NCBI RefSeq assembly: GCF_000970025.1 | Contig: NZ_CP009528.1 | Location: 2,281,168-2,345,167, forward strand | DNA from: Methanosarcina barkeri MS | GTDB taxonomy: Archaea > Halobacteriota > Methanosarcinia > Methanosarcinales > Methanosarcinaceae | Direction: 5' to 3' | Length of the DNA: 64,000 nt | Shown: piece by piece, positions 22,588 to 62,287 of the stretch | Numbering within the stretch: the stretch's first letter is position 1 | How the letters are laid out: every line of letters starts with the position of its first letter | Made by a program: the position numbers and the translations under genes | The notes under the pieces: model-generated | What the model was told of the DNA's origin: nothing | The model's input: only the letters and a program-made list of their open reading frames with translations | The model's database searches: none

Positions 22588-22739
22588 TTTCAGCTTTTAG
22601 TTGTTCAGAGAGGCGAAGAGCTCATTCTCTTCGCAAATTTTATATACCATAATCGGGTTTGTTGTATACGCTTCCCGGAATCTCATGGTAATCTGTACCT
22701 TTCCCTTTGCGGAAGCTGTAAGAATAATTCTTTCAACCT

Positions 22740-22824
22740 GCTGAGGTAGCCCAGCGGACCACGGCGCCGGTCTTGAAAACCGGTAGCGCCTTGCGCTACG
22801 GGAGTTCGAATCTCCCCCTCAGCG
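22740..22824 (+). tRNA. tRNA-Ser (anticodon UGA)
   Basis: 85 nt. Acceptor GCTGAGG pairs with CCTCAGC, discriminator G at 22824 and no encoded CCA. Anticodon stem CCGGT/ACCGG holds loop CTTGAAA, giving anticodon TGA. Long variable arm TAGCGCCTTGCGCTA marks a class II tRNA. T arm GGGAGTTCGAATCTCCC is standard. A TATA-like TTTTATATACC is at 22637-22647. Confidence 0.97.
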
Positions 22825-23559
22825 TTAATTTCTTAGTTTTTTTCTAAAAATAACTATAGCTTTTATAAGTTAAGCTTGAATATATTTTGGCTGTAAGTCA
22901 CCGCATATTTTGAAGAAATTATGATTCTCTGGACCTGTCTAAAAGTAATTGACATAACATTTTTTCGGTATCTATAGGCTCTTTTTATTAATGGGTGGTT
23001 TTTATACCTCATTGGTGCGAAGAGCCGCTCATGATCATGACCGAGAGTGAAGGCGAGACTTCTCTCTTTTACTATTTTACATATCAGAATTTCTAGTTAA
23101 AAAAGGAGCTTTACTGCCTTCTCGGGATCTAACAGTCATGTTATACCTTCGTAATCCTTACCCAAGTCTTAATAACAGTTTTTCATAGTCTTAAAAAAGT
23201 TTTTCTTGTTATGTGCAGCCTTCTTTGATTAACAGGTCAACACTGATAAGTACACTCAATCAGACTTGGTTTCCATTTAACGGAAGCTATATTTATAAGT
23301 TTAATATCAGTATGTTTGATATTTTCAGATTTAATATTTGTAACTTTAATATTTCATTTAACATAGGTTTAATTATAATTTAAACTCAGACTTAATAATC
23401 ATTTAAAACGCGCTTAACTTTAACTGCATATTAACTAACTATAATCGCAATTTGCTTCAGTTGCAATTCACTGCAACAGCACTTTACTTCAAAAGTAATC
23501 AATTGAAGTCGTGCCTAAGCATAATTTGACATAAAAATCATACTCAGGAGCAGTAATCA
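22825..23559. other. 735-bp gap between tRNA-Ser and htpX
   Basis: No protein gene. Apart from the structured segment at 22979-23066 it is AT-rich, with many TTTAATAT/TTAATATTT strings at 23295-23390. Confidence 0.5.
22979..23066 (+). ncRNA. Candidate structured RNA (two hairpins)
   Basis: GGCTCTT (22979) pairs with AAGAGCC (to 23028) around a second inner pairing AATGgGtGG/CCTCATT, making one long hairpin. It is followed by GAGAGTGAAG...ACTTCTCTC, a second hairpin ending in TTTTAC. This could be a small RNA, a leader or only an element end; strand is assumed from the T-run. Confidence 0.3.
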
Positions 23560-24444
23560 ATGAAACGAAAGTGGGAACGAGATTTGGGACTTCAGGGACG
23601 GATGATTTTCACGATGTTTCTTCTGGCAGCAGTTTACTTTTTATTCCTGGTGTTTCTCTCGTACAACGGGACTCCAACAGTGGTCATGATGCTTTTTGTA
23701 GGCTCTTTCATGGCCATCCAGTACTTTTACTCAGATAAACTGGTGCTGTGGTCAACCGGAGCACATATCGTTTCTGAAAGCGAAGCCCCACAACTGCATG
23801 GGATAATTACGCGGCTCTGCGCAATAGCTGATCTCCCGAAACCGCAGGTGGCGATTGTCAGGACTCAGGTTCCGAATGCTTTTGCAACAGGCCGAAACCA
23901 GAACAACGCTGTTGTTGCAGTTACAACAGGAATTATGGACAAACTCTCTCCAGCCGAACTTGAGGCCGTGATTGCTCACGAGCTTACCCATGTCAAGAAC
24001 AGAGATATGGCTATCATGACAATTGCCAGTTTCATCTCAACTCTGGCTTTTTACTTCGCCCGTTACGTCCTCTACTTTGGAGATATGGGAGGAGACAGGA
24101 AAAAAGAAGGTGGAGGCGTTTTGCTTGTCTGGCTAGTTTCACTTGCAGTCTGGGCTATCAGTTTCCTACTTATTCGAGCCCTTTCTCGCTACAGGGAATA
24201 TGCCGCAGACAGGGGCGCAGCCATTATTACCGGACAACCATCGAACCTTGCATCGGCCTTAATGAAGATAAGCGGAGTCATGTCCAAGGTCCCACGTGAA
24301 GACCTCAGGTCAGTAGAGGGAATGAATGCCTTTTTCATAATCCCTGCAATCTCAGGTTCTTCCATAATGGATCTGTTTTCCACTCACCCGTCTGTGGAAA
24401 AAAGAATAGCCAAACTTGAAAAGATGCAGCAGGATCTGGGATAA
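23560..24444 (+). CDS. htpX: Membrane zinc metalloprotease HtpX (M48)
   Basis: 294 residues. Two N-terminal membrane helices (about 17-35 and 38-55), then VIAHELTHVKNRDM with HELTH at 140-144, two more hydrophobic segments (about 153-170 and 184-204) and RYREYAADRGAA with the third zinc ligand E213. Cleaves damaged membrane proteins on the cytosolic side. AGGAG lies 9 bp before the ATG. The next gene encodes PspAB, and PspA/PspAA follow 3 kb later on the same strand, placing HtpX in an envelope-stress neighbourhood. Confidence 0.95.
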   Translation: MKRKWERDLGLQGRMIFTMFLLAAVYFLFLVFLSYNGTPTVVMMLFVGSFMAIQYFYSDKLVLWSTGAHIVSESEAPQLHGIITRLCAIADLPKPQVAIVRTQVPNAFATGRNQNNAVVAVTTGIMDKLSPAELEAVIAHELTHVKNRDMAIMTIASFISTLAFYFARYVLYFGDMGGDRKKEGGGVLLVWLVSLAVWAISFLLIRALSRYREYAADRGAAIITGQPSNLASALMKISGVMSKVPREDLRSVEGMNAFFIIPAISGSSIMDLFSTHPSVEKRIAKLEKMQQDLG

Positions 24445-24456
24445 CCTGATGTACTC

Positions 24457-24562
24457 GTAAAATCCAGGCCACAGGACAAATCCTTGTCACAGAGCGAATT
24501 CCAGTTATAGGACAAATCCTTGTCGTAGGGCGAATTCCAGTTATAGGACAAATCCAGGTTAT
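24457..24562. repeat. 46-bp tandem duplication in the htpX-pspAB spacer
   Basis: ACAGGACAAATCCTTGTC(A/G)... GCGAATTCCAGTTAT is present twice with a third partial copy. It fills the space between the two genes of the pair. Confidence 0.75.
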
Positions 24563-24642
24563 AAACTCTCATTAACAGGCACGAATCAAGAAAACGAATT
24601 CATACCGCGAATTAAGAACATGACTTAAAAAGGAGAAACTAA

Positions 24643-25242
24643 ATGGGTCTTCGCGATTTAGTGGACGCAGTTCTCGGGAAGAGTACGCTTCCAAAAGCAA
24701 AAAGTGAGAAACTATTTGCAATGTCTACAGCCAGTATTACTCTGGAAAGCAATCTCGGTTTAAAACCCTCAGGATCGGCAGGGATCTGCTTTAAGCCAAT
24801 AGGGGCTTCAGCGTATGAATCTACACGAAAAGAAATTCAGGAGCTCCTGGAATACAGTTCAAAGGAAACAGAAACCGATTTCAGGCTGGAAAACGACGAG
24901 TTCAATTTCCTGTGGGCTATTTTTAAAGACCCGGATTTAGAAGACCTTGTTGCAAACATTCACCTTGTAAGTGAAACCCTTGAAGAACGCGGCTTTGGCG
25001 GGCAGCTTCTCTGTGCTATTTACAGGTTTGACAGCGAACCCGAAGCCGGGAAAGCTGGCCGTGGAGAAACTGTTTACTGGATCTATAATTTTAAGCAGGG
25101 AACTTATTATCCCTTTGTCCCGCTTTCCGGCAAGCAGAGAGACAGTCCCTTTGAATTTAAGTTGAGATCGGAAATGGAAAGGGAAATGCCTATCGAAGAA
25201 AATGTAGAAAAGTGGTACCCTCTTTGGGGAATTCCATTCTAA
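24643..25242 (+). CDS. pspAB: PspA-associated protein PspAB
   Basis: 199 residues, soluble, no membrane segment. N-terminal MGLRDLVDAVLGKSTLPK, then conserved blocks LESNLGLKPSGSAGICFKP and WIYNFKQGTYYPFVPL, and a C-terminus ending EKWYPLWGIPF, which match the PspAB family that accompanies PspA or HtpX in archaea and actinobacteria. AGGAG 7 bp before ATG. Exact biochemical role is not known; here it follows htpX by 198 bp. Confidence 0.85.
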   Translation: MGLRDLVDAVLGKSTLPKAKSEKLFAMSTASITLESNLGLKPSGSAGICFKPIGASAYESTRKEIQELLEYSSKETETDFRLENDEFNFLWAIFKDPDLEDLVANIHLVSETLEERGFGGQLLCAIYRFDSEPEAGKAGRGETVYWIYNFKQGTYYPFVPLSGKQRDSPFEFKLRSEMEREMPIEENVEKWYPLWGIPF

Positions 25243-25395
25243 AAGACTGTGACCTAAAAGACTGTGACGCCGAGAAGTTCAATCTATTTTATCCGAGAAG
25301 TTCAATCTATTTTATAACTCTTTTTCCTTAATTTTTAATTGAGTCCATTCAACTTGGTCATTCATAATCAAGCTCAGGTTTTGATCAAATTGGGG

Positions 25396-26370
25396 TTAAT
25401 TTTTGATTAAGCTCAGTTTTAATCCTTGAGTTTTGAGCTCTTCAATAAGCTCTTTTGAATAATCGGGAACTGCACCTGGTTTTGATGCAACATACGTTCC
25501 AAGGATGCAGGCGATTGAAGCGGCTTTTGAAACTCCGTACCCTGAGAGGTAGGTGTAAAGAAAGCCTGCGGAAAAGGCATCTCCGGCTCCGACAGTATCT
25601 GCAACCTCGACAGGAGTTGTTTCTACCTCCTCATAAATGCCTTTATGGAAAACAGCGGCTCCTCTGGGTCCTCTTGATATACATATCACGGAAATTTCAG
25701 GATATTTTTCGGTAGCCAGGAGGCAGAAAGCTTTGTAAGAAGTAAGAGGTTTGCAGGTGCCGGGAGTGCCAGAAAGCATGCAGGAAATACTGGCGGCTTC
25801 TTCCTCATTCAGCTTTAAAATCGTCGTGTATTTTAGCGAAGAGAGTATCCATTCTTCTTTGTAATTACCTGTCCTCAAGTTTACATCGTAGAAGAAATAT
25901 TTTGCTTTTATTTCCGAAAACAGCCTTTTCAGAGTTTTTCGATTTTCTTCCGACCTCTGGGCAAGGGTTCCAAAGCAGAAAACATCCCATTCTTCCCTGG
26001 AAAGAGCCTCAAACTCCTTTTCTCCCGGTGTAATTGAATCCCAGGCAACGCCTCTGTTAATCGTGAAAACCGGAATTCCTTCAGCCTGAAGTTGAACAGT
26101 AACCGTTCCTGTAGGTCTTTTTTTATCAATTAAGATGTAAGAGGTGTCGATCCCCATTGCTTCAGCCCTGGTAAACAGGCTTTTTCCAAGTTCATCTCTT
26201 CCGACTGCCGTGATCACAGCCGGTTTTGCTCCCAGTTTTGCAAGATGGGCTGCAAGGTTCAGCGGAGCTCCCCCAAGGTGGGCTGAACCTTTGATAATAT
26301 CAAAAAGAGCTTCCCCAAAGGTAAGGGCTTTAATTGACTTAATGCGGCTGGAATGAGAATTTTCATTCAT
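25396..26370 (-). CDS. PfkB-family sugar kinase (fructokinase-like)
   Basis: 324 residues. Ribokinase/PfkB fold: N-terminal substrate motif GSAHLGGAPLNLAAHLAKLG and C-terminal signature DTVGAGDAFSAGFLYTYLSG whose GAGD Asp is the catalytic base. The GGAPLN string and overall length are typical of fructokinases. The frame is open to 26415, but the second in-frame Met (26370, MNENSHSS) is nearer the fold. It points against the flanking psp genes, so it is not part of their operon. Substrate is inferred only. Confidence 0.85.
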   Translation of the reverse strand: MNENSHSSRIKSIKALTFGEALFDIIKGSAHLGGAPLNLAAHLAKLGAKPAVITAVGRDELGKSLFTRAEAMGIDTSYILIDKKRPTGTVTVQLQAEGIPVFTINRGVAWDSITPGEKEFEALSREEWDVFCFGTLAQRSEENRKTLKRLFSEIKAKYFFYDVNLRTGNYKEEWILSSLKYTTILKLNEEEAASISCMLSGTPGTCKPLTSYKAFCLLATEKYPEISVICISRGPRGAAVFHKGIYEEVETTPVEVADTVGAGDAFSAGFLYTYLSGYGVSKAASIACILGTYVASKPGAVPDYSKELIEELKTQGLKLSLIKN

Positions 26371-26477
26371 CAATACGGTATATTGATTTATGAGTGATAA
26401 TACTTTGACATGCAAATGCCGTAAATAAAAAATTTAACAAGCTTGAGATCCCAGTTATACAGAGTTATTTACACTAT

Positions 26478-26601
26478 GAGCCTATCCCAAAAGTCACTTT
26501 ATTCAAAATTGTTAGGAATTTTCAAAGTTGTTTCCATGATCTTGATTGATTATTCGCAATACAAGACCCAAGAAGCAAATTTCAAGTTTTGGGATGAGCT
26601 C
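26478..26601. mobile_element. MITE related to the IS5-type element, copy 2 (124 bp)
   Basis: Ends GAGCCTATCCCAAAAGT and (reverse complement) GAGCTCATCCCAAAACT, flanked by TAT on both sides. It aligns over its length with 17538-17667 and shares only its termini with the 815-bp element at 47013. Confidence 0.85.
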
Positions 26602-26747
26602 TATAAATAGTTTTCATATCTTTATAATTTTTCTTCAATTTTCGGACTGATCCATGTAAGTTCTCAATTTCTAAAAACTTTAAAAAAACAGTTTTATGAA
26701 GATAAACCAAATAATTGTATATTTATAAAACTTGTTATATAGTTGTA

Positions 26748-27094
26748 TGAAGAAAAATCTGCGCTCAACCTGCTCGCTTTTTCTTGTCTTTCTTTTTTAC
26801 TGTCGGATTTGTGGTGTTGGGAAGCGCAGAAAAAGCTAATAATAGCTCAAAACAAAATTATACATTTAACGAAAGTAACTACTCTCATCATTAGAATGGC
26901 CTAAGTTCGCCGACAAGTAACTATATATGAGGATATCCAAGAAATACTTATATTTTTACTACAAAATACAATTCTTCACTGTTCTCAAATAATTCAACTG
27001 TGGTATTTTATTGGAACTTTTATGGTGAACTTTGTGAGTTTAGAATGAAACCAGATTCAGAGGTAGCGGATAATTATTCATTAAATTTGATAAA
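26748..27094 (+). pseudogene. Relic of a secreted/surface protein
   Basis: Starts MKKNLRSTCSLFLVFL, a signal-like segment, changes frame at about 26800 and then reads VGFVVLGSAEKANNSSKQNYTFNESNY with two stops, continuing as TYIFTTKYNSSLFSNNSTVVFYWNFYGE. The Asn/Ser/Thr-rich text resembles Methanosarcina surface proteins with PKD-like domains. It is cut at about 27095 by transposase-derived sequence. Confidence 0.55.
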
Positions 27095-27473
27095 TTGTTT
27101 TATACCAAAACAGGATATGAACAGCTGGATGAAAAAATCGCTAAGACGAAAGAGAAAAAGGAACAGCTGTTAAAAGTACTGGTTTTTCCAGAGATTCCGT
27201 TGCATAACAATGCAGTGGAATTAGCAGCAAGGGCAAAAGTCAGAAAAAGAGATATGAGTCTCCAAACCATAACAGAGGATGGAACAAAGGCAAACGACAC
27301 ATTTATGACGATTGTTCAGACAGCAAAGAAACCGGGGGTAAGTGCATATAAGTATGTAATAGAGTAGGCAGTGCATTTGAGATACCATTTCTGTCTCAAC
27401 TCATCACAGAGAAAAAAGCTCATTGAGTGCAAAGTGAAAACTTATCACTTAATTTGAAGAGGATAGGACTGGA
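27095..27473 (+). pseudogene. IS66-like transposase C-terminal relic
   Basis: Reads IPLHNNAVELAARAKVRKRD...GTKANDTFMTIVQTAKKPGVSAYKY, the C-terminal end pattern of IS66-like transposases (PLxNNxxE...TAKxxGVxxYxY). After a frame change at 27365 it continues VGSAFEIPFLSQLITEKKAH and stops. It ends at the element terminus AATTTGAAGAGGATAG (27458-27473). The matching relic at 54485-54655 confirms the frame repair. Family name is tentative. Confidence 0.65.
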
Positions 27474-27684
27474 GGATAATTTATAGATAGGAATATAGGT
27501 AAGCTAATTATATTATTCTAATTACTCTAACGAAAAATTACTCTAACGAAAACAAATAGACAGCAAGAATACCAGAAATACCGGGTTAGGTACCGGAACA
27601 GATTTGTCAGGAATAATAAAGAAAGCATGAAAGTCTCAGACCTATTCGGCTTGAGGTCTTTTAAAAAAGCAAAGGGGAAAATAC

Positions 27685-28437
27685 ATGGGATTATTCAAAA
27701 GGATGGAGACAGTATTAAAATCGAAGATGAATACAGTTCTTAACAAGGTGGAAGACCCACGGGAAACGCTGGACTATTCCTATGAGAGGCAGCTCGAACT
27801 TCTCCAGAACGTGAAGAGAGGAGTTGCGGAAGTTACAAGCTCAAAAAAGCGCCTTGAGCTCCAGCGTGTAAAACTGGTTCAAAATATAGACAAGCTTGAA
27901 GGGCAGGCAAGAGATGCAGTTGCCGCTGGTAGGGAGGATCTTGCAAGGCTGGCACTTGAGAGAAAAGCAGCCCTTGCGCAACAGATCGAAGGAATCGACA
28001 GGGAAATTGCAGATCTTGAGAAGCAGCAAGAAAAATTGATAGCTTCGGAAAAGCGCCTTTCAACGAAAGTGGAGATTTTCAGGACCCGGAAAGAGTCGAT
28101 TAAAGCCCAGTACTCAGCTGCTGAGGCCCAGGTAAAAATAAACGAATCTGTTACCGGCATCGGTGAAGAAATGGCAGATGTAGGCCTTGCACTCGAAAGG
28201 GCAGAAAATAAAACCGAAGAAATGAAAGCGCGGGCTGAGGCAATTGACGAGCTTATGGAAGCTGGTACACTCGAAGATCTTACAGGCAGCAGGGACGAAA
28301 TTGATAGGGAACTTTCAAAAATCAGTGCCCAGAGTAACGTAGAATCCGAACTTGCCAGGCTTAAGGCCGAATCCGGAAAAGGGCCTGAAAAAGCGAAAAC
28401 CGTGGAAGAAGGTACGGAAGAACGAAAGGGGGTCTGA
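27685..28437 (+). CDS. pspA: PspA/IM30/Vipp1 membrane-stress protein
   Basis: 250 residues, almost wholly helical and coiled-coil. N-terminal amphipathic helix MGLFKRMETVLKSKMNTVLNK, then EDPRETLDYSYERQLELL, the usual PspA/IM30 start, and long heptad-rich helices to about residue 225. Expected to bind stressed membrane and oligomerise as an ESCRT-III-like scaffold. GGGG lies before the ATG. The stop is 2 bp before the start of pspAA, so translation is coupled. Confidence 0.93.
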   Translation: MGLFKRMETVLKSKMNTVLNKVEDPRETLDYSYERQLELLQNVKRGVAEVTSSKKRLELQRVKLVQNIDKLEGQARDAVAAGREDLARLALERKAALAQQIEGIDREIADLEKQQEKLIASEKRLSTKVEIFRTRKESIKAQYSAAEAQVKINESVTGIGEEMADVGLALERAENKTEEMKARAEAIDELMEAGTLEDLTGSRDEIDRELSKISAQSNVESELARLKAESGKGPEKAKTVEEGTEERKGV

Positions 28438-28439
28438 AG

Positions 28440-28718
28440 TTGATAATCAGGATTATGGGTGAAGGCCAGTACAGGGCACCTGAAGCTCTCTGTGACGAAC
28501 TGAACCAGATTGATAATCGGATCGTGGTTCTTGTTGAGGAAGGAAAAGTCGAGGAGTTCCGAAGCGAACTTGCCAGATTGATCTCCAAAATAAAGGAAAA
28601 AGGGGAGCCTATTGAAGCGGAAGAGCTTCTGAAATCCGACATTATCGTACCCCCTGAGGACCTGAGCCTTGAAGAAGCAAAAGACGTGTTTAAAGGTGCA
28701 GGAATTTTTGAGGATTGA
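28440..28718 (+). CDS. pspAA: PspA-associated protein PspAA
   Basis: 92 residues, starting with TTG at 28440, 2 bp after the pspA stop; AGGGGGTC lies 5-6 bp upstream. It reads MIIRIMGEGQYRAPEALCDELNQIDNRIV and ends in PPEDLSLEEAKDVFKGAGI, matching the small PspAA domain that pairs with PspA in archaea and actinobacteria. Function is presumed regulation or partnering of PspA. Confidence 0.88.
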   Translation: MIIRIMGEGQYRAPEALCDELNQIDNRIVVLVEEGKVEEFRSELARLISKIKEKGEPIEAEELLKSDIIVPPEDLSLEEAKDVFKGAGIFED

Positions 28719-28734
28719 GGCTGTAACCTAAGAA

Positions 28735-28935
28735 CAAGTCCTAAAACAAATCTATGAACAAGTTTTAAAACAAATCTATGAACAAATCTATGAACAAGTT
28801 TTAAAACAAATCTATGAACAAATCTATGAACAAGTTTTAAAACAAATCTATGAACAAATCTAAGAACAAGTTCTAAAACAAATCTATGAACAAATCTAAG
28901 AACAAGTTCTAAAACAAATCTAAGAAGAAATCTAA
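28735..28935. repeat. Tandem AT-rich repeat after pspAA
   Basis: Alternating units CTATGAACAAAT and CTATGAACAAGTTTTAAAACAAAT (12 and 24 bp) form a compound array of about 200 bp directly behind the psp operon. Translated on the minus strand it is open but gives only a low-complexity repeat, so I do not call a gene. Confidence 0.85.
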
Positions 28936-28990
28936 AAAAATAACTTTCCGGCACCGAAAATAAGAGATAGCAGGCCTCTAAGGCCTGCGT

Positions 28991-29440
28991 TCACCGAATA
29001 ACCATTACTGGAACCGTTGAATGCCTTAAGACCTTTTCTGCAACACTACCAATCAGGAATTTTTTGATGCCTGTCAGACCCTGTGTACCCATTATTATAA
29101 GGTCAATATTGTTTTCCTGGGCATATTCAAGGATCTTATCAGCAGGAATGCCTTTCAGGAAAGTAGGCTTAACTTCAAGCCCGGCTTCTTTTCCCAGTTT
29201 TTCGACATAGTTAATTGCAGCTCTCCCCTTATTCGTAAGATATTCTTCCAGTCCTTCGCTCCAGCTCTTAACCGTCCGCGTAGTTACTGCATGCTGAGTC
29301 GAAATTACATAAAGAGCGTCTACTTCAGCATCTGCAGCCTTTGCGAGATTAATTCCATAAGAAGCTGCTCTTTCTGCATTCTCCGAGCCGTCAGTTGCAA
29401 TCAAAATTCTTTTGAAATGACTTCCTTCCATACTATCCAC
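28991..29440 (-). CDS. Universal stress protein, UspA family
   Basis: 149 residues, single Usp domain. N-terminal strand RILIATDGSENAERAASYG and C-terminal ATP-binding motif GTQGLTGIKKFLIGSVAEKVLRH (G-x2-G-x9-G-S) indicate the nucleotide-binding subgroup. Start is ATG 29440 or the second ATG four codons later. Placed convergent to the psp operon. Confidence 0.93.
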   Translation of the reverse strand: MDSMEGSHFKRILIATDGSENAERAASYGINLAKAADAEVDALYVISTQHAVTTRTVKSWSEGLEEYLTNKGRAAINYVEKLGKEAGLEVKPTFLKGIPADKILEYAQENNIDLIIMGTQGLTGIKKFLIGSVAEKVLRHSTVPVMVIR

Positions 29441-29576
29441 CCCCTTTTTGATACTATAAAGACATATTTTCTATTCTTGCTTTAAAATTCATAGGCAGTG
29501 TGACGAAAGTTCTGTAAAATATGATTGACTCTATATCTTTTTTCTTCACCACAAAAAAATAGGATGTAGAGTCAAT

Positions 29577-29790
29577 GGTTAATCTATTCTCATTCATAAA
29601 AGATTATCTTGTCGATCAGGAAGACAAAATTCGCCAGTTAATTACCTGATTTTAAATTTTGTCATGGAGAAGGAAGCCTTCCTCCAATCTCGTGCATAAC
29701 GTTATGAGCGTACTGATTAGCGGAAAGCCAGTAGAAACGACTACAAACACCGAACTCTCCTTACCAAATATGGAGAACTTGAATTTTTAA
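29577..29790 (+). pseudogene. IS256-like transposase, N-terminal relic
   Basis: MVNLFSFIKDYLVDQEDKIR starts at 29577, hits a stop, and continues in pieces as NFVMEKEAFLQS, RYERTD, RKASRNDYKHRTLLTKYGELE, the conserved start of Mutator-type transposases. At least three stops and a frame change. The C-terminal half of the same kind of protein follows in the opposite orientation. Confidence 0.65.
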
Positions 29791-30300
29791 AGCTTCAGTT
29801 CCATTAAAGCTTCAGTTCCGTGAATTTCCTTTTGAAACTCAAGTATTTGAAAAGTATTACGAGGTTGAAAAGTCCATATTCTTTTTATTTCCTTGTTAGT
29901 TCTCTCCATTATATTTGGTGTCCTTATTCTTTTCCAATGACTCTGTGGAAACTGCATATAGTTCATTACATCATACTGAAAATGTTCAAGAGTATCAGCT
30001 GTACTTTTATATCTCATATTATCCAGTTCCCTTATCAAGTCCTGTAACTTCTGACGATCTACCAACGCTTCTTTTATTTTCTCTGATACTTCTTTGTGCT
30101 TCTTTTTTGGAACCTTTTTTGGAGCTTGTCTTATCAGATGAACGTGACACATCTGCCAACCTGATCCAATAAAGGATTCTCTAACTGCTTTTTGTATTCC
30201 TTTATGACCATCAGAAACAACTAACTTGACGCCTCTTAATCCTCTCTCTTTAAGGTCTTCGAATAGACCTTGCCAGAAAAAACAGATATAATCAGTACAA
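29787..30300 (-). pseudogene. IS256-like transposase, C-terminal relic in inverted orientation
   Basis: From about 30300 leftwards: FWQGLFEDLKERGLRGVKLVVSDGHKG (catalytic Asp in the SDGHKG block), SFIGSGWQMCHVHLIRQ (CxxH motif of the family), and RTPNIMERTNKEIKRI near the end with the conserved Glu. The open frame from Met 30152 is 121 codons but lacks the N-terminal half, which lies next to it facing the other way. Confidence 0.75.
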
Positions 30301-30605
30301 TTTGTTAAATTCCATTGAACTCTGTAGAATTTATCAACTCTTTAACTGCCGCGTTATTATTAAAATGTATTATGCCCAAAATAGGCAATAGTAATAGGCA
30401 ATAGTTAGAGATCAACTAATTTTACACACCTATTTACAGACCTGAAACGAGTAAAAATCAGTTTAAAGACTTTGAAAAACAAAATATAGGGCAAAATATT
30501 GTAGATTGGTTGTCCTTATGTTCAAATAAGTATTTAACAATATTATAGCAAATATTATATCAGATATTATAGTAAAATTTTAATAGATTTTAAAGAGGTT
30601 TTATT

Positions 30606-57092: not shown

Positions 57093-58634
57093 TTAATTTC
57101 CTGGTTTTACTTTTCTGTAAAGGAACACAGCAAGCAGAGAAACTGCTCCGTAAATGATCTCAAACCCGGGAGCATCTGTTTTATTCTCAAGTGCGTATTC
57201 AACACTTGAAGTGTTTATTCTTGAATCATTCTCTCCATTAAGGGCGGCAGCTTTCGATCCATTCTGGGGATCAAGTTCCACATTGGAAATTCCGCTATCC
57301 TCAGTTTGGTTGTAATAGGTTCCGTTACCGCCTGCTTCAACAGCTCTGGTTACGTTACCGGAACTTCCATTTGCACCTGTTGCGTTTTCGCCAGTTTCGT
57401 TATCCACGGTTGTATTGTTCCCAGAGCCGTTTTCAACAGGATTGGTAACCATAACAGGATGGGTAACAATTACTGCGGAAGTTTTTGAATCTGTTCCATT
57501 TTTATTTGTAGCGCTGAAGGTAACAGTGTAAGCCCCCATTGTCGTAAACACATGAACCGGATTTTCCTCAGTAGAGTCGATCTTCCCGTCACTCTCAAAG
57601 TCCCAGCTCCATGAGTCTGCATTTTCGGACAGGTCGGTAAACTGGACTGCAAGAGGAGCAGAGCCATTGCTATTGTTCATTTCGAAGTTTGCTTCCGGAG
57701 GTCCGAGCTGCTGTGACTTGGATGATGAAATAAGAGGTAACTTATCAGAGTAGGTGCTTTGCGAGAGCCTGTATTCGGAGTCTGCAATTCCGTCTCCATT
57801 CGCATCTACTGCTGTATCCGAAAAACCTGTACCTTCAGGTTCTGCCCAGAAATTACCTCCAAGATAGGGGCCGCCTACAATATTCTCACCTTCGGTCTTT
57901 TCTGTGTTGTAGGCATTTCCAACTCCATTTTGAACCTCTGCATTGGCGGTGTTGTTGAAATAGTTATTATAAATCAGATTATCATCACTCTCTGGACAGA
58001 CAAAAAGGCCGTAAACGTCGTTTAAGGATACATTATTGCCTGTAAGCGTGTTACTGTCGGAAGTGCTGATATGGACGCCAGTGTCTTTATTATCCGAAGC
58101 CGTATTTCCGGAGAAGGTATTATTGGTTGAGGCCGATAATAGGATCCCATATTCTCCATTATTTGTAACCACGTTATTTGAGAGCGTATTGCCTTTTGAG
58201 TTCAAAAGATAAATTCCATAGCCGTTGTTCTGAATTTTATTATTCTCAATGATGCAGTTATTACATTCTGAGAGACAGATTCCGGAATAGCTGTTTTTTG
58301 TTCCTGTAATCCCAAGTCCACTAATTTTTACTTTATCAGCCTGCAAGGAGATTACATGATTGTCTGAGCTCTTAGCCGTAATCATCGTGTCATCAGGATT
58401 CCCGGATTCCGAAGATATTACGAGGTTATCTTTGTCTATTTTGATATTCTCGATATAGGTTCCGGGTTTTAAGATAATTACATCACCTGAGACTGCATTG
58501 TCCAATGCGGTTTGTATCGAATCTCCAGGCTGGACGTAAACCTCAGCCGCAGCTCCGATGCCCGAGCCTAATGTTAAGAGGAGAAAAACTTCCAATAAAA
58601 TAATTAACCTGTTCAATTTGATTCCCCAGTACAT
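57093..58634 (-). CDS. Surface protein: NosD-like beta-helix, PKD domain, PGF-CTERM
   Basis: 513 residues. Signal peptide about 1-29 (LLEVFLLLTLGSGIGAAA). Residues 30-255 form a right-handed parallel beta-helix with periplasmic copper-binding NosD-type repeats (NGYGIYLLNSKGNTLSNNVV and similar). Residues about 312-395 are a PKD domain (APLAVQFTDLSENADSWSWDF...NPVHVFTTMGAYTVTFSATN). A Asn/Thr/Gly-rich linker precedes the C-terminal tail APGFEIIYGAVSLLAVFLYRK, a PGF-CTERM archaeosortase signal, so the mature protein should be lipid-anchored at the cell surface. Many NxT/NxS sites. Confidence 0.93.
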   Translation of the reverse strand: MYWGIKLNRLIILLEVFLLLTLGSGIGAAAEVYVQPGDSIQTALDNAVSGDVIILKPGTYIENIKIDKDNLVISSESGNPDDTMITAKSSDNHVISLQADKVKISGLGITGTKNSYSGICLSECNNCIIENNKIQNNGYGIYLLNSKGNTLSNNVVTNNGEYGILLSASTNNTFSGNTASDNKDTGVHISTSDSNTLTGNNVSLNDVYGLFVCPESDDNLIYNNYFNNTANAEVQNGVGNAYNTEKTEGENIVGGPYLGGNFWAEPEGTGFSDTAVDANGDGIADSEYRLSQSTYSDKLPLISSSKSQQLGPPEANFEMNNSNGSAPLAVQFTDLSENADSWSWDFESDGKIDSTEENPVHVFTTMGAYTVTFSATNKNGTDSKTSAVIVTHPVMVTNPVENGSGNNTTVDNETGENATGANGSSGNVTRAVEAGGNGTYYNQTEDSGISNVELDPQNGSKAAALNGENDSRINTSSVEYALENKTDAPGFEIIYGAVSLLAVFLYRKVKPGN

Positions 58635-59192
58635 TCAAAGTATGGGTGATACTTCGATTAATTAACCGGGAATTAATATAAAGCAATATAAGTATATTGG
58701 TACAAATTATAATTGCACTATGATATTAATATTCATCTTAAATTATAGTTTAACAAATTATCGTTAATTTATTCAATTTAACTTAACATTATACCACTCA
58801 GATTAAATTAATCAAAGAAACTTTATATAAGCTAGTGCTATGGAAATTTATTTATAAATCATTATAATTAAGAAAAGTACTATGAATGAAGTGTTGTCTA
58901 TGTATTAACGTATCATAATCAAGTTGCCATGACACTGATGTAAAAAATCAAAAAAATATAAAATATCGGAAAGTGACTTAACTAATGTGAAATCATCTTA
59001 ACTGAAACGAAAAATAAGCAAACTGATTTTTAATGTGCCTGAGTAATTATAGACAAAGTATAAGGAAAAGTAAAGCTTTGATCTGTTGATATTAATATAT
59101 TACTCTCTATTACCTCAAGTTTCACTTATTACTCTCTATCACCTCGAGTCTATAAGCTATCTGAACCAGTGCTAACCTAATTAAGGCTACCG
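58635..59192. other. Intergenic region
   Basis: 558 bp upstream of the surface-protein gene, strongly AT-rich (TTAATTTATTC and similar). TATA-like TTTATATAAG is at 58822-58831. No gene or clear repeat. Confidence 0.4.
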
Positions 59193-59348
59193 TCATAACA
59201 AGTACGAGATGATTGCAAGTATGATAAAGATTATGACGAGCCACTTTGCAATGTCCATTGATAAACCGGCAACTCCCCTTGCGCCCAGTATATATGCAAT
59301 CAATGCCAATATTAGAAAGACCACAGCAAGTCCTATCAAACCCGGCAT
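59193..59348 (-). CDS. DUF1328/UPF0391 small membrane protein
   Basis: 51 residues, two membrane helices with a short polar loop: [22 protein letters not shown] then [21 protein letters not shown]. The GARGVAGxS loop and the AKWLxxIF second helix fit the UPF0391 (YtjA) group. GGGGGAG lies 7 bp before the ATG at 59348. Too short for most gene callers. Function unknown, stress-related in some bacteria. Confidence 0.8.
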
Positions 59349-59628
59349 ATTTCACTCCCCCAGTGATTATTTACCCGATAAACCAATTATTAGATTAAAG
59401 GTATTTATAATTTGACTGTCGAAGTAAGTCGTCTTGTTATATATTGACATGTTTTTTTAATTGGAATCGTCCCTTTTAAAATTTGATATAACTTTTTTAA
59501 GTCTTTCCTAGATATCGCAATTAAACAGTATCAGATAAAGACAAAGGAAAATAGAAGAAAATGAAGGAAAATAAGAAGAGTCAGCAAGAGTAAAAAGAAA
59601 ACTGAAAGAGACTACAGGCCAGAAAGCC

Positions 59629-60813
59629 TTATGGAACAATCTTTCTGGCTTCAATATAATATCTCTTCTCATTTTCCTTTCCAAGGGAAAAAGATTTTCT
59701 TGGAAGAACCCCTTTCTTTTTAATTAGAGAAAAGAAATCGCTCTGTTTTAATGAGGGGAGGAAGAAACCGATATTACCCTGTTTTTTTCCAAGTTTTTCC
59801 ACAACTTCAGGATCATGTTCATATTCGATCGAATAATTCTCAATGATCTCGTCAAGGGTTTCAACCTCAAGATCGTAAACAGGATTATCAAAAACCAGCA
59901 CACCAGACCTGTCTTTTGTAATAAATCCTATTGAATGTCCTGCAACCGGGAAATCGGCATTTGAGGGGGAGGTGCTAGTTTCTTCGATTCTTGCATCAAA
60001 TTTTTTGAGCAGTTCTTCAGGTTCAATTCCGCTTACAACCCTGTGAATAGGTTCAAAGGACAGCCCGGGGTCGTGAACATTTACAAGTTCAACCATTGCG
60101 TATCTTGCAGGATGATCGGCCTGTACGGTCCCTTTAATTTGTTCCCAGAAGCTCTTTGCAGCAGCAAGGCTGTGGTTTCCATCACCAACAAGAAGGGTTC
60201 CCAGGTTCAGGATTTTCTCCGAAATTTCTTTAATTATCTTTTCATTACTGATCCTGTAACCTGCAACGTGGCCGCCGTTTTCCATCAGGTCAAAATCATA
60301 AACCTTGTCTTCTTCACAAACAAAATTATCAGGGTTTCTGGGGATAACCGAGAAAGAAGGGTCATCATATAACACTAAGATGTGCGAGAGTTCCAGTTCT
60401 GCGTTTTCCCTTATCCTAACTCTTGCTGGAAGCCTTTCTTTAATAGTGCCTTCCGTTGGTTTGATAAATGATTCGGACCCGTTGAACTGGTATTCTTCCA
60501 GGTCTATTGCAACAACAAGCCCGGTTCTTTTCTTATCTGAGACCGAACGCCTTACAAGAATAAAACAGGGGCCGTGGTCAACGAGAAGTTTTTTGTAGTC
60601 ACTTATAGTTTTATGAATCTTATTTACTCTATTCTCATCTAGCGGAAGATATATTTCCGGATAAATTAAATTAAAAGTAGAGGGGGTATCTCCAATAAAT
60701 TCTTCAACTCTTTTCCAGTATTCCGGATCCTGAGTGTGCTGATCACAGGCAATCACTGCCCACTTTTCCCAATTATCTTTTGGAAGAAGAATGCGTGGAA
60801 CATGTAAAACCAT
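59629..60813 (-). CDS. DUF1015 family protein
   Basis: 394 residues. Conserved family blocks: CDQHTQDPEYWKRVEE at about 24-39, LPARVRIRENAELELSHILVLYDDP, LLVGDGNHSLAAAKSFWE (the GDGNHS motif) and LVNVHDPGLSFEPIHR. No membrane segment. Domain of unknown function, widely distributed and often near amino acid or serine metabolism genes; nothing adjacent supports a pathway here. Leaderless start at ATG 60813 is possible, as no ribosome site is evident. Confidence 0.88.
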   Translation of the reverse strand: MVLHVPRILLPKDNWEKWAVIACDQHTQDPEYWKRVEEFIGDTPSTFNLIYPEIYLPLDENRVNKIHKTISDYKKLLVDHGPCFILVRRSVSDKKRTGLVVAIDLEEYQFNGSESFIKPTEGTIKERLPARVRIRENAELELSHILVLYDDPSFSVIPRNPDNFVCEEDKVYDFDLMENGGHVAGYRISNEKIIKEISEKILNLGTLLVGDGNHSLAAAKSFWEQIKGTVQADHPARYAMVELVNVHDPGLSFEPIHRVVSGIEPEELLKKFDARIEETSTSPSNADFPVAGHSIGFITKDRSGVLVFDNPVYDLEVETLDEIIENYSIEYEHDPEVVEKLGKKQGNIGFFLPSLKQSDFFSLIKKKGVLPRKSFSLGKENEKRYYIEARKIVP

Positions 60814-60916
60814 GGTATGTTAAAAAAAGAGAGAGAATATAAAGATTTCTAAATTCCTTTTCTGAGTACACAGATTAAAGAAAAGCAAATTTATAAAAAT
60901 AAATTTATAAAAAAGT

Positions 60917-62287
60917 TTATTTTACTGTGCTGTATCCGGCATTTTTCCATGCAGTCATGCTGCCAAGCACATTATATACATTATTATAGCCATTCTTTTT
61001 CAAAATAGAAGCTGCTATACTGGAACGTCTGGAACTGTCACAATAAACAATTACCTGAGAGTCCTTTGGAACTTTATCCATGTTTTTATTAAGTTTCCCA
61101 ACGTATATATGTTTAGCTCCCTGAATGTGCCCTTCATTCCATTCTTTTTCCTTCCTCACATCCAGTAGTGTCATCTCCTCGTGCTTCTCCAGTTTATTCT
61201 TCAGATCGTGGACCGAGATCAAACTAACTTCGTCTACGGGTAAAGCTTTCATATACCAGGCTGAAATTCCGTCGTTCAAAAAACCCGTTATATTGTCATA
61301 GCCCAGACGGACCAGATACCTTACAGCAGTTTCAAGCTGTTCTTTTTCCTCCAGCACGAGGAGTATGGGTTTATTATAAGGAAGAACCCAGCCCGCAAAT
61401 GAAGGTACCACTCCGAGCCAGATGCTGTAGGAGTTTCTGATATGCGCTCCTCCAAAGGAATGAGGCATGCGCATATCAACGACCACTGCTCCTTTTTCTA
61501 TTTTCTTCCTGAACTCCGCGGGTGAAAGCGGCTTCGGAGTAGGCAGGCCCTGCAGCAGAGGAGGTCCTTGCAGGTTGTACTGTTCCATTTTCTTGAAGTA
61601 AGGAGGGAAATCAAGCTGCTCTTCAAGTTTGAACTTAATAAATTCTTCTCTGTTTGTTTTCTGAAGAGCAGGATTCTGTACACGCTCAAGTCCAAGCGTA
61701 CTGTAGTCCCGTTTAGCAATAGCTCCTCCGCAAACCGAGCCTGAGCCATGTGCAGGACATAGTATTACTCCATCTCCCAGTGGAAGGATTTTGTTAAATA
61801 TACTGTCGTAGAGATTTGCTGCCAGCCCTGGAGCTTCCCCTGGGCCATAGAGATCGATTCTTCCGGTATCGCCTACAAACAGGGCATCTCCTGTAAAAAC
61901 CATTACTGGCTCTTTTCCTGTATCAAGGTCTGTCAGGACATAGGACATACTCTCGTCGGTATGTCCCGGAGTATGTAAAGCCGTCAATTCCATTGAGCCT
62001 AAATCAAACTCCTGGCCTTCATTCAAGTAGTTCCCGTATTTGAAATCCACTCCGTGGCCATGATAAATCTCTGCGTCTGTAAGCTTCTTCAATTCCAGGG
62101 AACCGATTACGTAGTCTTCATTTCTGTGGGTTTCAAAAATATATTTTATGTTCATACCCTCTCTTCTGGCAAGTTCGACATAGACCTGACAGTCTCTTCG
62201 AGGATCGATAACTATGGCTTCATTTTCCGAACCAATGAAATAGGAAAGATGAGCCAGACCTTCAGATTTAATGCGTTCAAATATCAA
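60917..62287 (-). CDS. Metallo-beta-lactamase fold enzyme with two rhodanese domains
   Basis: 456 residues, TTG start at 62287 behind GGGGGGC. Residues 1-230 are an MBL domain of the persulfide-dioxygenase/glyoxalase II type: IFETHRNEDYVIG replaces the usual THxHxDH, with HTPGHTDES, TGDALFVGDTGR and CPAHGSGS. Then a first rhodanese domain (about 260-350, VVVDMRMPHSFGGAHIRNSYSIW) without a catalytic Cys, and a second (about 365-456) with VIVYCDSSRRSSIAASIL, whose Cys is active-site. Likely thiosulfate/persulfide sulfur handling. Confidence 0.88.
   Translation of the reverse strand: MIFERIKSEGLAHLSYFIGSENEAIVIDPRRDCQVYVELARREGMNIKYIFETHRNEDYVIGSLELKKLTDAEIYHGHGVDFKYGNYLNEGQEFDLGSMELTALHTPGHTDESMSYVLTDLDTGKEPVMVFTGDALFVGDTGRIDLYGPGEAPGLAANLYDSIFNKILPLGDGVILCPAHGSGSVCGGAIAKRDYSTLGLERVQNPALQKTNREEFIKFKLEEQLDFPPYFKKMEQYNLQGPPLLQGLPTPKPLSPAEFRKKIEKGAVVVDMRMPHSFGGAHIRNSYSIWLGVVPSFAGWVLPYNKPILLVLEEKEQLETAVRYLVRLGYDNITGFLNDGISAWYMKALPVDEVSLISVHDLKNKLEKHEEMTLLDVRKEKEWNEGHIQGAKHIYVGKLNKNMDKVPKDSQVIVYCDSSRRSSIAASILKKNGYNNVYNVLGSMTAWKNAGYSTVK

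Follow-up and report, generated by a model that had tools for sequence, protein, structure and literature searches.

How did four membrane-stress genes come to lie side by side in Methanosarcina barkeri MS, and does their proximity record an ancestral operon or a later event? The genes htpX, pspAB, pspA and pspAA are found intact and on the plus strand within 5.2 kb of a 64,000-nucleotide stretch of the chromosome (NZ_CP009528.1, positions 2,281,168 to 2,345,167; hereafter the window, from whose first letter positions in the locus are counted), arranged as two pairs separated by 2442 bp. The initial annotation had described the same four genes, split by the kinase gene pfkB, a miniature inverted-repeat transposable element (MITE), a decayed gene and a relic of an IS66 insertion sequence, a description that proves correct. 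The history of the locus is another matter. The pair pspA–pspAA, together with the universal stress protein gene usp, very probably moved from a conserved place in the genome to its present position next to htpX–pspAB–pfkB, which makes the region a secondary meeting of two separate transcription units.

The pairs in other Methanosarcina genomes

The window genome (G000; chromosome of 4,533,209 bp, in an assembly of two contigs that is 99.9% complete) was compared with 10 other complete Methanosarcina chromosomes, in which distances between the pairs were taken from listed coordinates, and with draft genomes of the genus. A wider survey covered 80 named loci, and a survey for PspAA and PspAB covered 61 genomes of the family. 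In what follows, block A denotes the htpX–pspAB–pfkB neighbourhood and block B the pspA–pspAA–usp neighbourhood.

If insertions had opened an operon, the four genes were expected to be contiguous in other members of the genus, but they are contiguous in none. In the 10 other complete chromosomes pspAB and pspAA lie between 74 kb and about 1.9 Mb apart (74–219 kb in several relatives), in the drafts the two pairs fall on different contigs, and the closeness of both pairs is unique to the window genome among the complete chromosomes examined. Each pair has its own surroundings in Methanosarcina: htpX–pspAB is followed by a convergent pfkB in most genomes, pspA–pspAA is followed by a convergent usp, and about 6 kb to the left of pspA is conserved at 14 of the 17 block-B loci, ending with a divergent msvR. 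In a tree of the four concatenated proteins, some of whose deeper nodes are weakly supported, G000 stands beside G084 and then G064, deep in the genus. Given this nested position, a retained adjacency would require about eight independent breaks at one and the same point.

The junction and its distant counterpart

Block A is collinear with the corresponding region of G064 up to about 27010–27045, block B starts at 27470, and the IS66 relic (27008–27468, plus strand) occupies the space between them. The conserved left flank of pspA, about 6 kb up to the divergent msvR, is present in the same genome about 137 kb away (2439569–2445419 of the chromosome), where it ends in an IS66 fragment (2445441–2445636) whose right end and orientation match those of the junction relic. 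Block B itself begins with the pspA-side half of the ancestral msvR–pspA intergenic region (27470–27684, plus strand), as comparison with relatives reveals, and the window half and the distant half together rebuild the ancestral spacer, short of only about 10–15 bp. Three things are direct observations: the two halves of the split region, an IS66 remnant at each break point, and the nested placement of the species in the genus. It is the scars at the two break points that document the rearrangement.

The relic at the junction is far from a complete IS66: the transposase match is limited to its C-terminal 79 residues, and the right end is the only one present. Its 90-residue open reading frame (27095–27370) matches the transposase C-terminus with 44 bits against an NF033517 cut-off of 180, which marks the sequence as only a remnant. 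The right end, at about 27465–27468, is natural and the same as in other copies; the left end is truncated, since other copies extend about 220 bp further.

The most likely cause of the move is recombination between IS66 copies, which would be expected to leave just such a pattern. The units htpX–pspAB and pspA–pspAA would have parted in the ancestor of Methanosarcina, and an IS66 element would have come between msvR and pspA in the lineage of the window species. Recombination with another IS66 copy would then have shifted pspA–pspAA–usp by about 137 kb and joined it to the tail of the htpX–pspAB–pfkB block, with the msvR half left behind next to an IS66 scar.

Several observations weigh against this account. 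The former right neighbour of block A was sought in the relatives and not found, and the aminotransferase gene that now lies behind the IS66 scar stands beside htpX–pspAB in no relative, so that the exchange need not have been strictly reciprocal. In G084, too, the msvR neighbourhood has been lost; the break there lies about 10 bp away and carries no IS66, and some of the history may therefore be common to both genomes. Moreover, the IS66 copies of the genome are only 76–83% alike to the junction copy, which implies either that the event is old or that the copies were never close.

A further copy of the relic, in its full length, lies at another synteny break (L247:9492–9974; G000:C2:2809491–2809973), and the right flank that htpX–pspAB has in G064 ends at 2810363 in G000; this suggests that IS66 relics mark several rearrangements in the window genome. 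A block at 57095–61589 of the window lies about 31 kb to the right of pfkB here and about 4–5 kb to its right in G083 and G048, and in view of this shift the part of the window from 27 to 57 kb is probably mosaic.

Alternative explanations

Chance is enough to account for the proximity of the pairs, since they lie 74–219 kb apart in several relatives and Methanosarcina genomes are heavily rearranged; very little synteny has been described among strains of M. barkeri (PMC4582637). It is improbable that proximity was instead selected in the window species, whether to restore the physical linkage of a module or to bring it under shared control. Selection would fit with the co-occurrence of the four genes as one module and with their adjacency in most relatives outside the genus, and the chance that a randomly inserted segment ends up no more than about 2.5 kb from a particular locus is about 0.1% for one genome (2 x 2.5 kb / 4533 kb). 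However, this is a single case, and the short distances in several relatives make a chance adjacency far likelier by local shuffling. With pfkB on the opposite strand and 2.4 kb of debris in between, co-transcription would be prevented, and no motif common to the sequences upstream of htpX and of pspA was seen: across up to 23 loci, conservation in each is confined to the ribosome-binding region.

A single ancestral htpX–pspAB–pspA–pspAA operon, opened by the insertion of pfkB, the MITE and IS66 as first proposed for this locus, is scarcely credible and has already been refuted by the comparative map. The appeal of the idea is plain, with four genes on one strand in 5.2 kb, remnants of mobile elements between them and co-directional four-gene clusters in Methanoperedens. 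Yet the order is absent from the other genomes of Methanosarcina and from its sister genera, where the pairs are separate or convergent; pfkB is no insertion but a stable neighbour of pspAB that travels with htpX–pspAB in most Methanosarcina genomes; and the conserved sequence to the left of pspA is found at another place in the window genome. The other option offered initially, two co-located units, was right about the units, while the co-location itself is derived and recent. An assembly error at a repeat would be most surprising: the junction does fall on a repeated IS66 relic, but this is 460 bp long and its best other copies are 76–83% identical, so that reads would not confuse them, the two-contig assembly is 99.9% complete, and the scar at the old site is consistent with a real event.

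Arrangement outside the genus

Elsewhere in the family htpX–pspAB and pspA–pspAA usually converge, tail to tail. Such an arrangement is seen at 46 of the 80 named loci, including 3 with usp between the pairs; in 30 pspAA lies outside the fetched stretch, and 4 loci, all from Methanoperedens, carry pspA–pspAA–htpX–pspAB on one strand. The window order htpX–pspAB–pspA–pspAA occurs at none of these 80 loci, nor in any other Methanosarcina genome of the survey. The convergent locus of Methanolobus, Methanococcoides, Methanomethylovorans, ANME-2 and Methanothrix has the same co-directional, tightly coupled pairs as the window but places them tail to tail, usually 3–120 nt apart and without pfkB. 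The Methanoperedens cluster resembles the window in having all four genes on one strand, and differs from it in its opposite order, in pairs only about 0–65 nt apart and in the lack of insertions. The probable series leads from convergent pairs, through the insertion of usp (in the nearest genus, g11) and separation in Methanosarcina, to a secondary approach in the window species.

MsvR beside pspA in relatives

The divergent neighbour that pspA lost in the window species is itself a regulator. MsvR is divergently adjacent to pspA–pspAA at 17 loci in Methanosarcina and two neighbouring genera (L110, L112, L114, L117, L119, L121, L123, L125–L129, L134, L136, L138, L140 and L144). The protein belongs to the MsvR equivalog, and each locus has one TTCG-N8-CGAA box, 39–41 nt from the msvR start, and none near pspA; in the window no such box (TTCG-N7-9-CGAA) was found upstream of htpX, pspAB or pspA. 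Neither the window genome nor G084 retains this adjacency. In the former, msvR (L246:8515–9252; G000:C2:2444514–2445251; minus strand) and pspA are 137 kb apart.

MsvR has been characterised as a redox-sensitive regulator of M. acetivorans (Isom et al. 2013, PMC3729527), and MsvR/PmsvR of that species share the equivalog and the TTCG-N8-CGAA box with the regulator beside pspA in the relatives. In that study the gene listed next to msvR is MA1459, which codes for a hypothetical protein. The genome taken as M. acetivorans instead shows an open reading frame made of repeats there, followed by pspA–pspAA. A search for literature linking MsvR with PspA returned nothing relevant, and the conserved msvR–pspA divergent pair, broken in the window species, is apparently unreported. 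It is a speculative and rather unlikely proposition that MsvR is coupled to pspA–pspAA through the conserved divergent promoter region in Methanosarcina and the nearest genera, and that the IS66 rearrangement severed this coupling and set the pair beside htpX–pspAB, a natural rewiring of the envelope-stress response from redox to other control. With pspA–pspAA rather than an unrelated hypothetical gene as the neighbour of msvR in Methanosarcina, a link between redox and membrane stress in methanogens becomes directly testable.

A probable module in two transcription units

Among the 61 family genomes PspAA and PspAB occur together in 29, and neither occurs alone in any. In 19 further genomes of the family without PspAA and PspAB no PspA scored over the cut-off, and HtpX was represented only by a distant paralogue (about 45% identity or less) or not at all; the value of these joint absences is reduced by a completeness below 95% for several of the genomes concerned. 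In two Methanosarcina metagenome-assembled genomes (L245, G073:C90; L241, G072:C394) htpX and pspAB carry stops or frameshifts, with htpX nonsense-mutated and pspAB a pseudogene, and neither pspA nor pspAA is present. One stop, a TAG, can be read as pyrrolysine in the genus, but it stands at a conserved tryptophan. Because of this joint presence and absence across the family, the four proteins probably form a functional module whose genes are not a single operon, and since they have been lost jointly in a genus where the pairs are unlinked, linkage is not needed for their joint retention. An attractive operon story thus gives way to a module whose parts have been unlinked, shuffled and rejoined, yet are kept or lost as a set. 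In the window genome all four genes are under purifying selection, with ratios of nonsynonymous to synonymous substitution rates of 0.03–0.13 against two close relatives and about 0.1 for htpX.

PspA is an ESCRT-III-like membrane protein (PMC8281802) whose level reportedly increases under salt stress in Haloferax volcanii (PMC9239133), and HtpX is a membrane protease that acts on damaged membrane proteins (PMC9263693). Neither PspAA nor PspAB contains a membrane stretch, and since their genes lie directly beside pspA and htpX, respectively, PspAA is probably the partner of PspA and PspAB that of HtpX. Judging from the protein families and their co-occurrence, PspA would polymerise on damaged membrane and protect it, HtpX would degrade damaged membrane proteins, and PspAA and PspAB would serve as their soluble partners. 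Each pair would use its own promoter, and the four would act together without a single operon.

The same four protein families have been described by Ravi et al. (2024, PMC11237479; PF22743 and PF22742), who name a two-gene pspA–pspAA cluster (example AAM04874.1) and a membrane metallopeptidase–PspAB system. The four-gene module is already published and its genes belong to known families; what is new is the rearrangement and the msvR–pspA divergent pair. Unlike the published systems, the pairs in the window stand in tandem, 2.4 kb apart, with pfkB between them. The bacterial pspFABC operon and the HtpX of the Cpx/heat-shock response share the broad families of PspA and HtpX, but unlike the bacterial operon the locus has no PspB-, PspC- or PspF-type gene recognised among its scanned proteins, and its PspA, with 70 bits, remains below the cut-off of 243 for the E. 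coli-type equivalog TIGR02977.

Features of the two blocks

A conserved leader (23182–23559, plus strand) precedes htpX within block A; the alignment begins at 23182 for G064 and at 23131 for G084. The htpX gene (23560–24444, plus strand) encodes an M48 zinc metalloprotease of the M48B type that matches PRK02391 with 475 bits (cut-off 341), and has an HELTH zinc site at residue 140 and strongly hydrophobic stretches at residues 15–33 and 187–205. Downstream, pspAB (24643–25242, plus strand) matches PF22742 with 258 bits (cut-off 27; E-value 8e-77) and is the partner gene of htpX in nearly all relatives. The predicted structures of PspAB (pLDDT 76) and PspAA (pLDDT 88) gave no significant match to the PDB, with best E-values of 0.012 and 1.1, and consequently no mechanism is derived from their folds. 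The pfkB gene (25396–26415, minus strand; PF00294), which encodes a sugar kinase, is likely to start at the ATG near 26367. To its right, in the tail of block A, lies the MITE (26476–26609), which has 15-nt terminal inverted repeats (26478–26492 and 26587–26601) and more than 20 related copies in the genome, and is not found at the corresponding site in G064. The decayed signal-peptide or surface-protein gene (26747–27008, plus strand) belongs to block A, because G064 has the same gene at htpX–pspAB–pfkB.

In block B, pspA (27685–28437, plus strand) encodes a member of the PspA/IM30 family that matches PF04012 over residues 2–231 with 93.5 bits (cut-off 33.9) and resembles solved Vipp1/PspA chains. 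The pspAA gene (28440–28718, plus strand; PF22743, 108.5 bits, cut-off 27, E-value 2e-31) starts 2 nt past the pspA stop. Its convergent neighbour usp (28991–29440, minus strand) is conserved in Methanosarcina and the nearest genus, and immediately behind block B lies a multi-copy IS256-type relic (29494–30278, minus strand).

An Rfam scan of window positions 22600–30500 gave a single match, a tRNA-Ser (TGA) at 22739–22825, which lies at the left edge of the htpX block, next to a further synteny break. Tandem repeats of 36 nt are found between htpX and pspAB (24473–24555) and right after pspAA (28745–28934). Immediately 5' of the pspA ribosome-binding site lies an inverted repeat, AGACCT-N10-AGGTCT (27645–27672), whose arms co-vary in part among close relatives (ACC/GGT versus ATC/GAT). 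Finally, Methanosarcina G063 has a second pspA–pspAA pair (L115), in this copy without msvR as a neighbour, and Methanosarcina G075 carries a second PspAA gene (L105).

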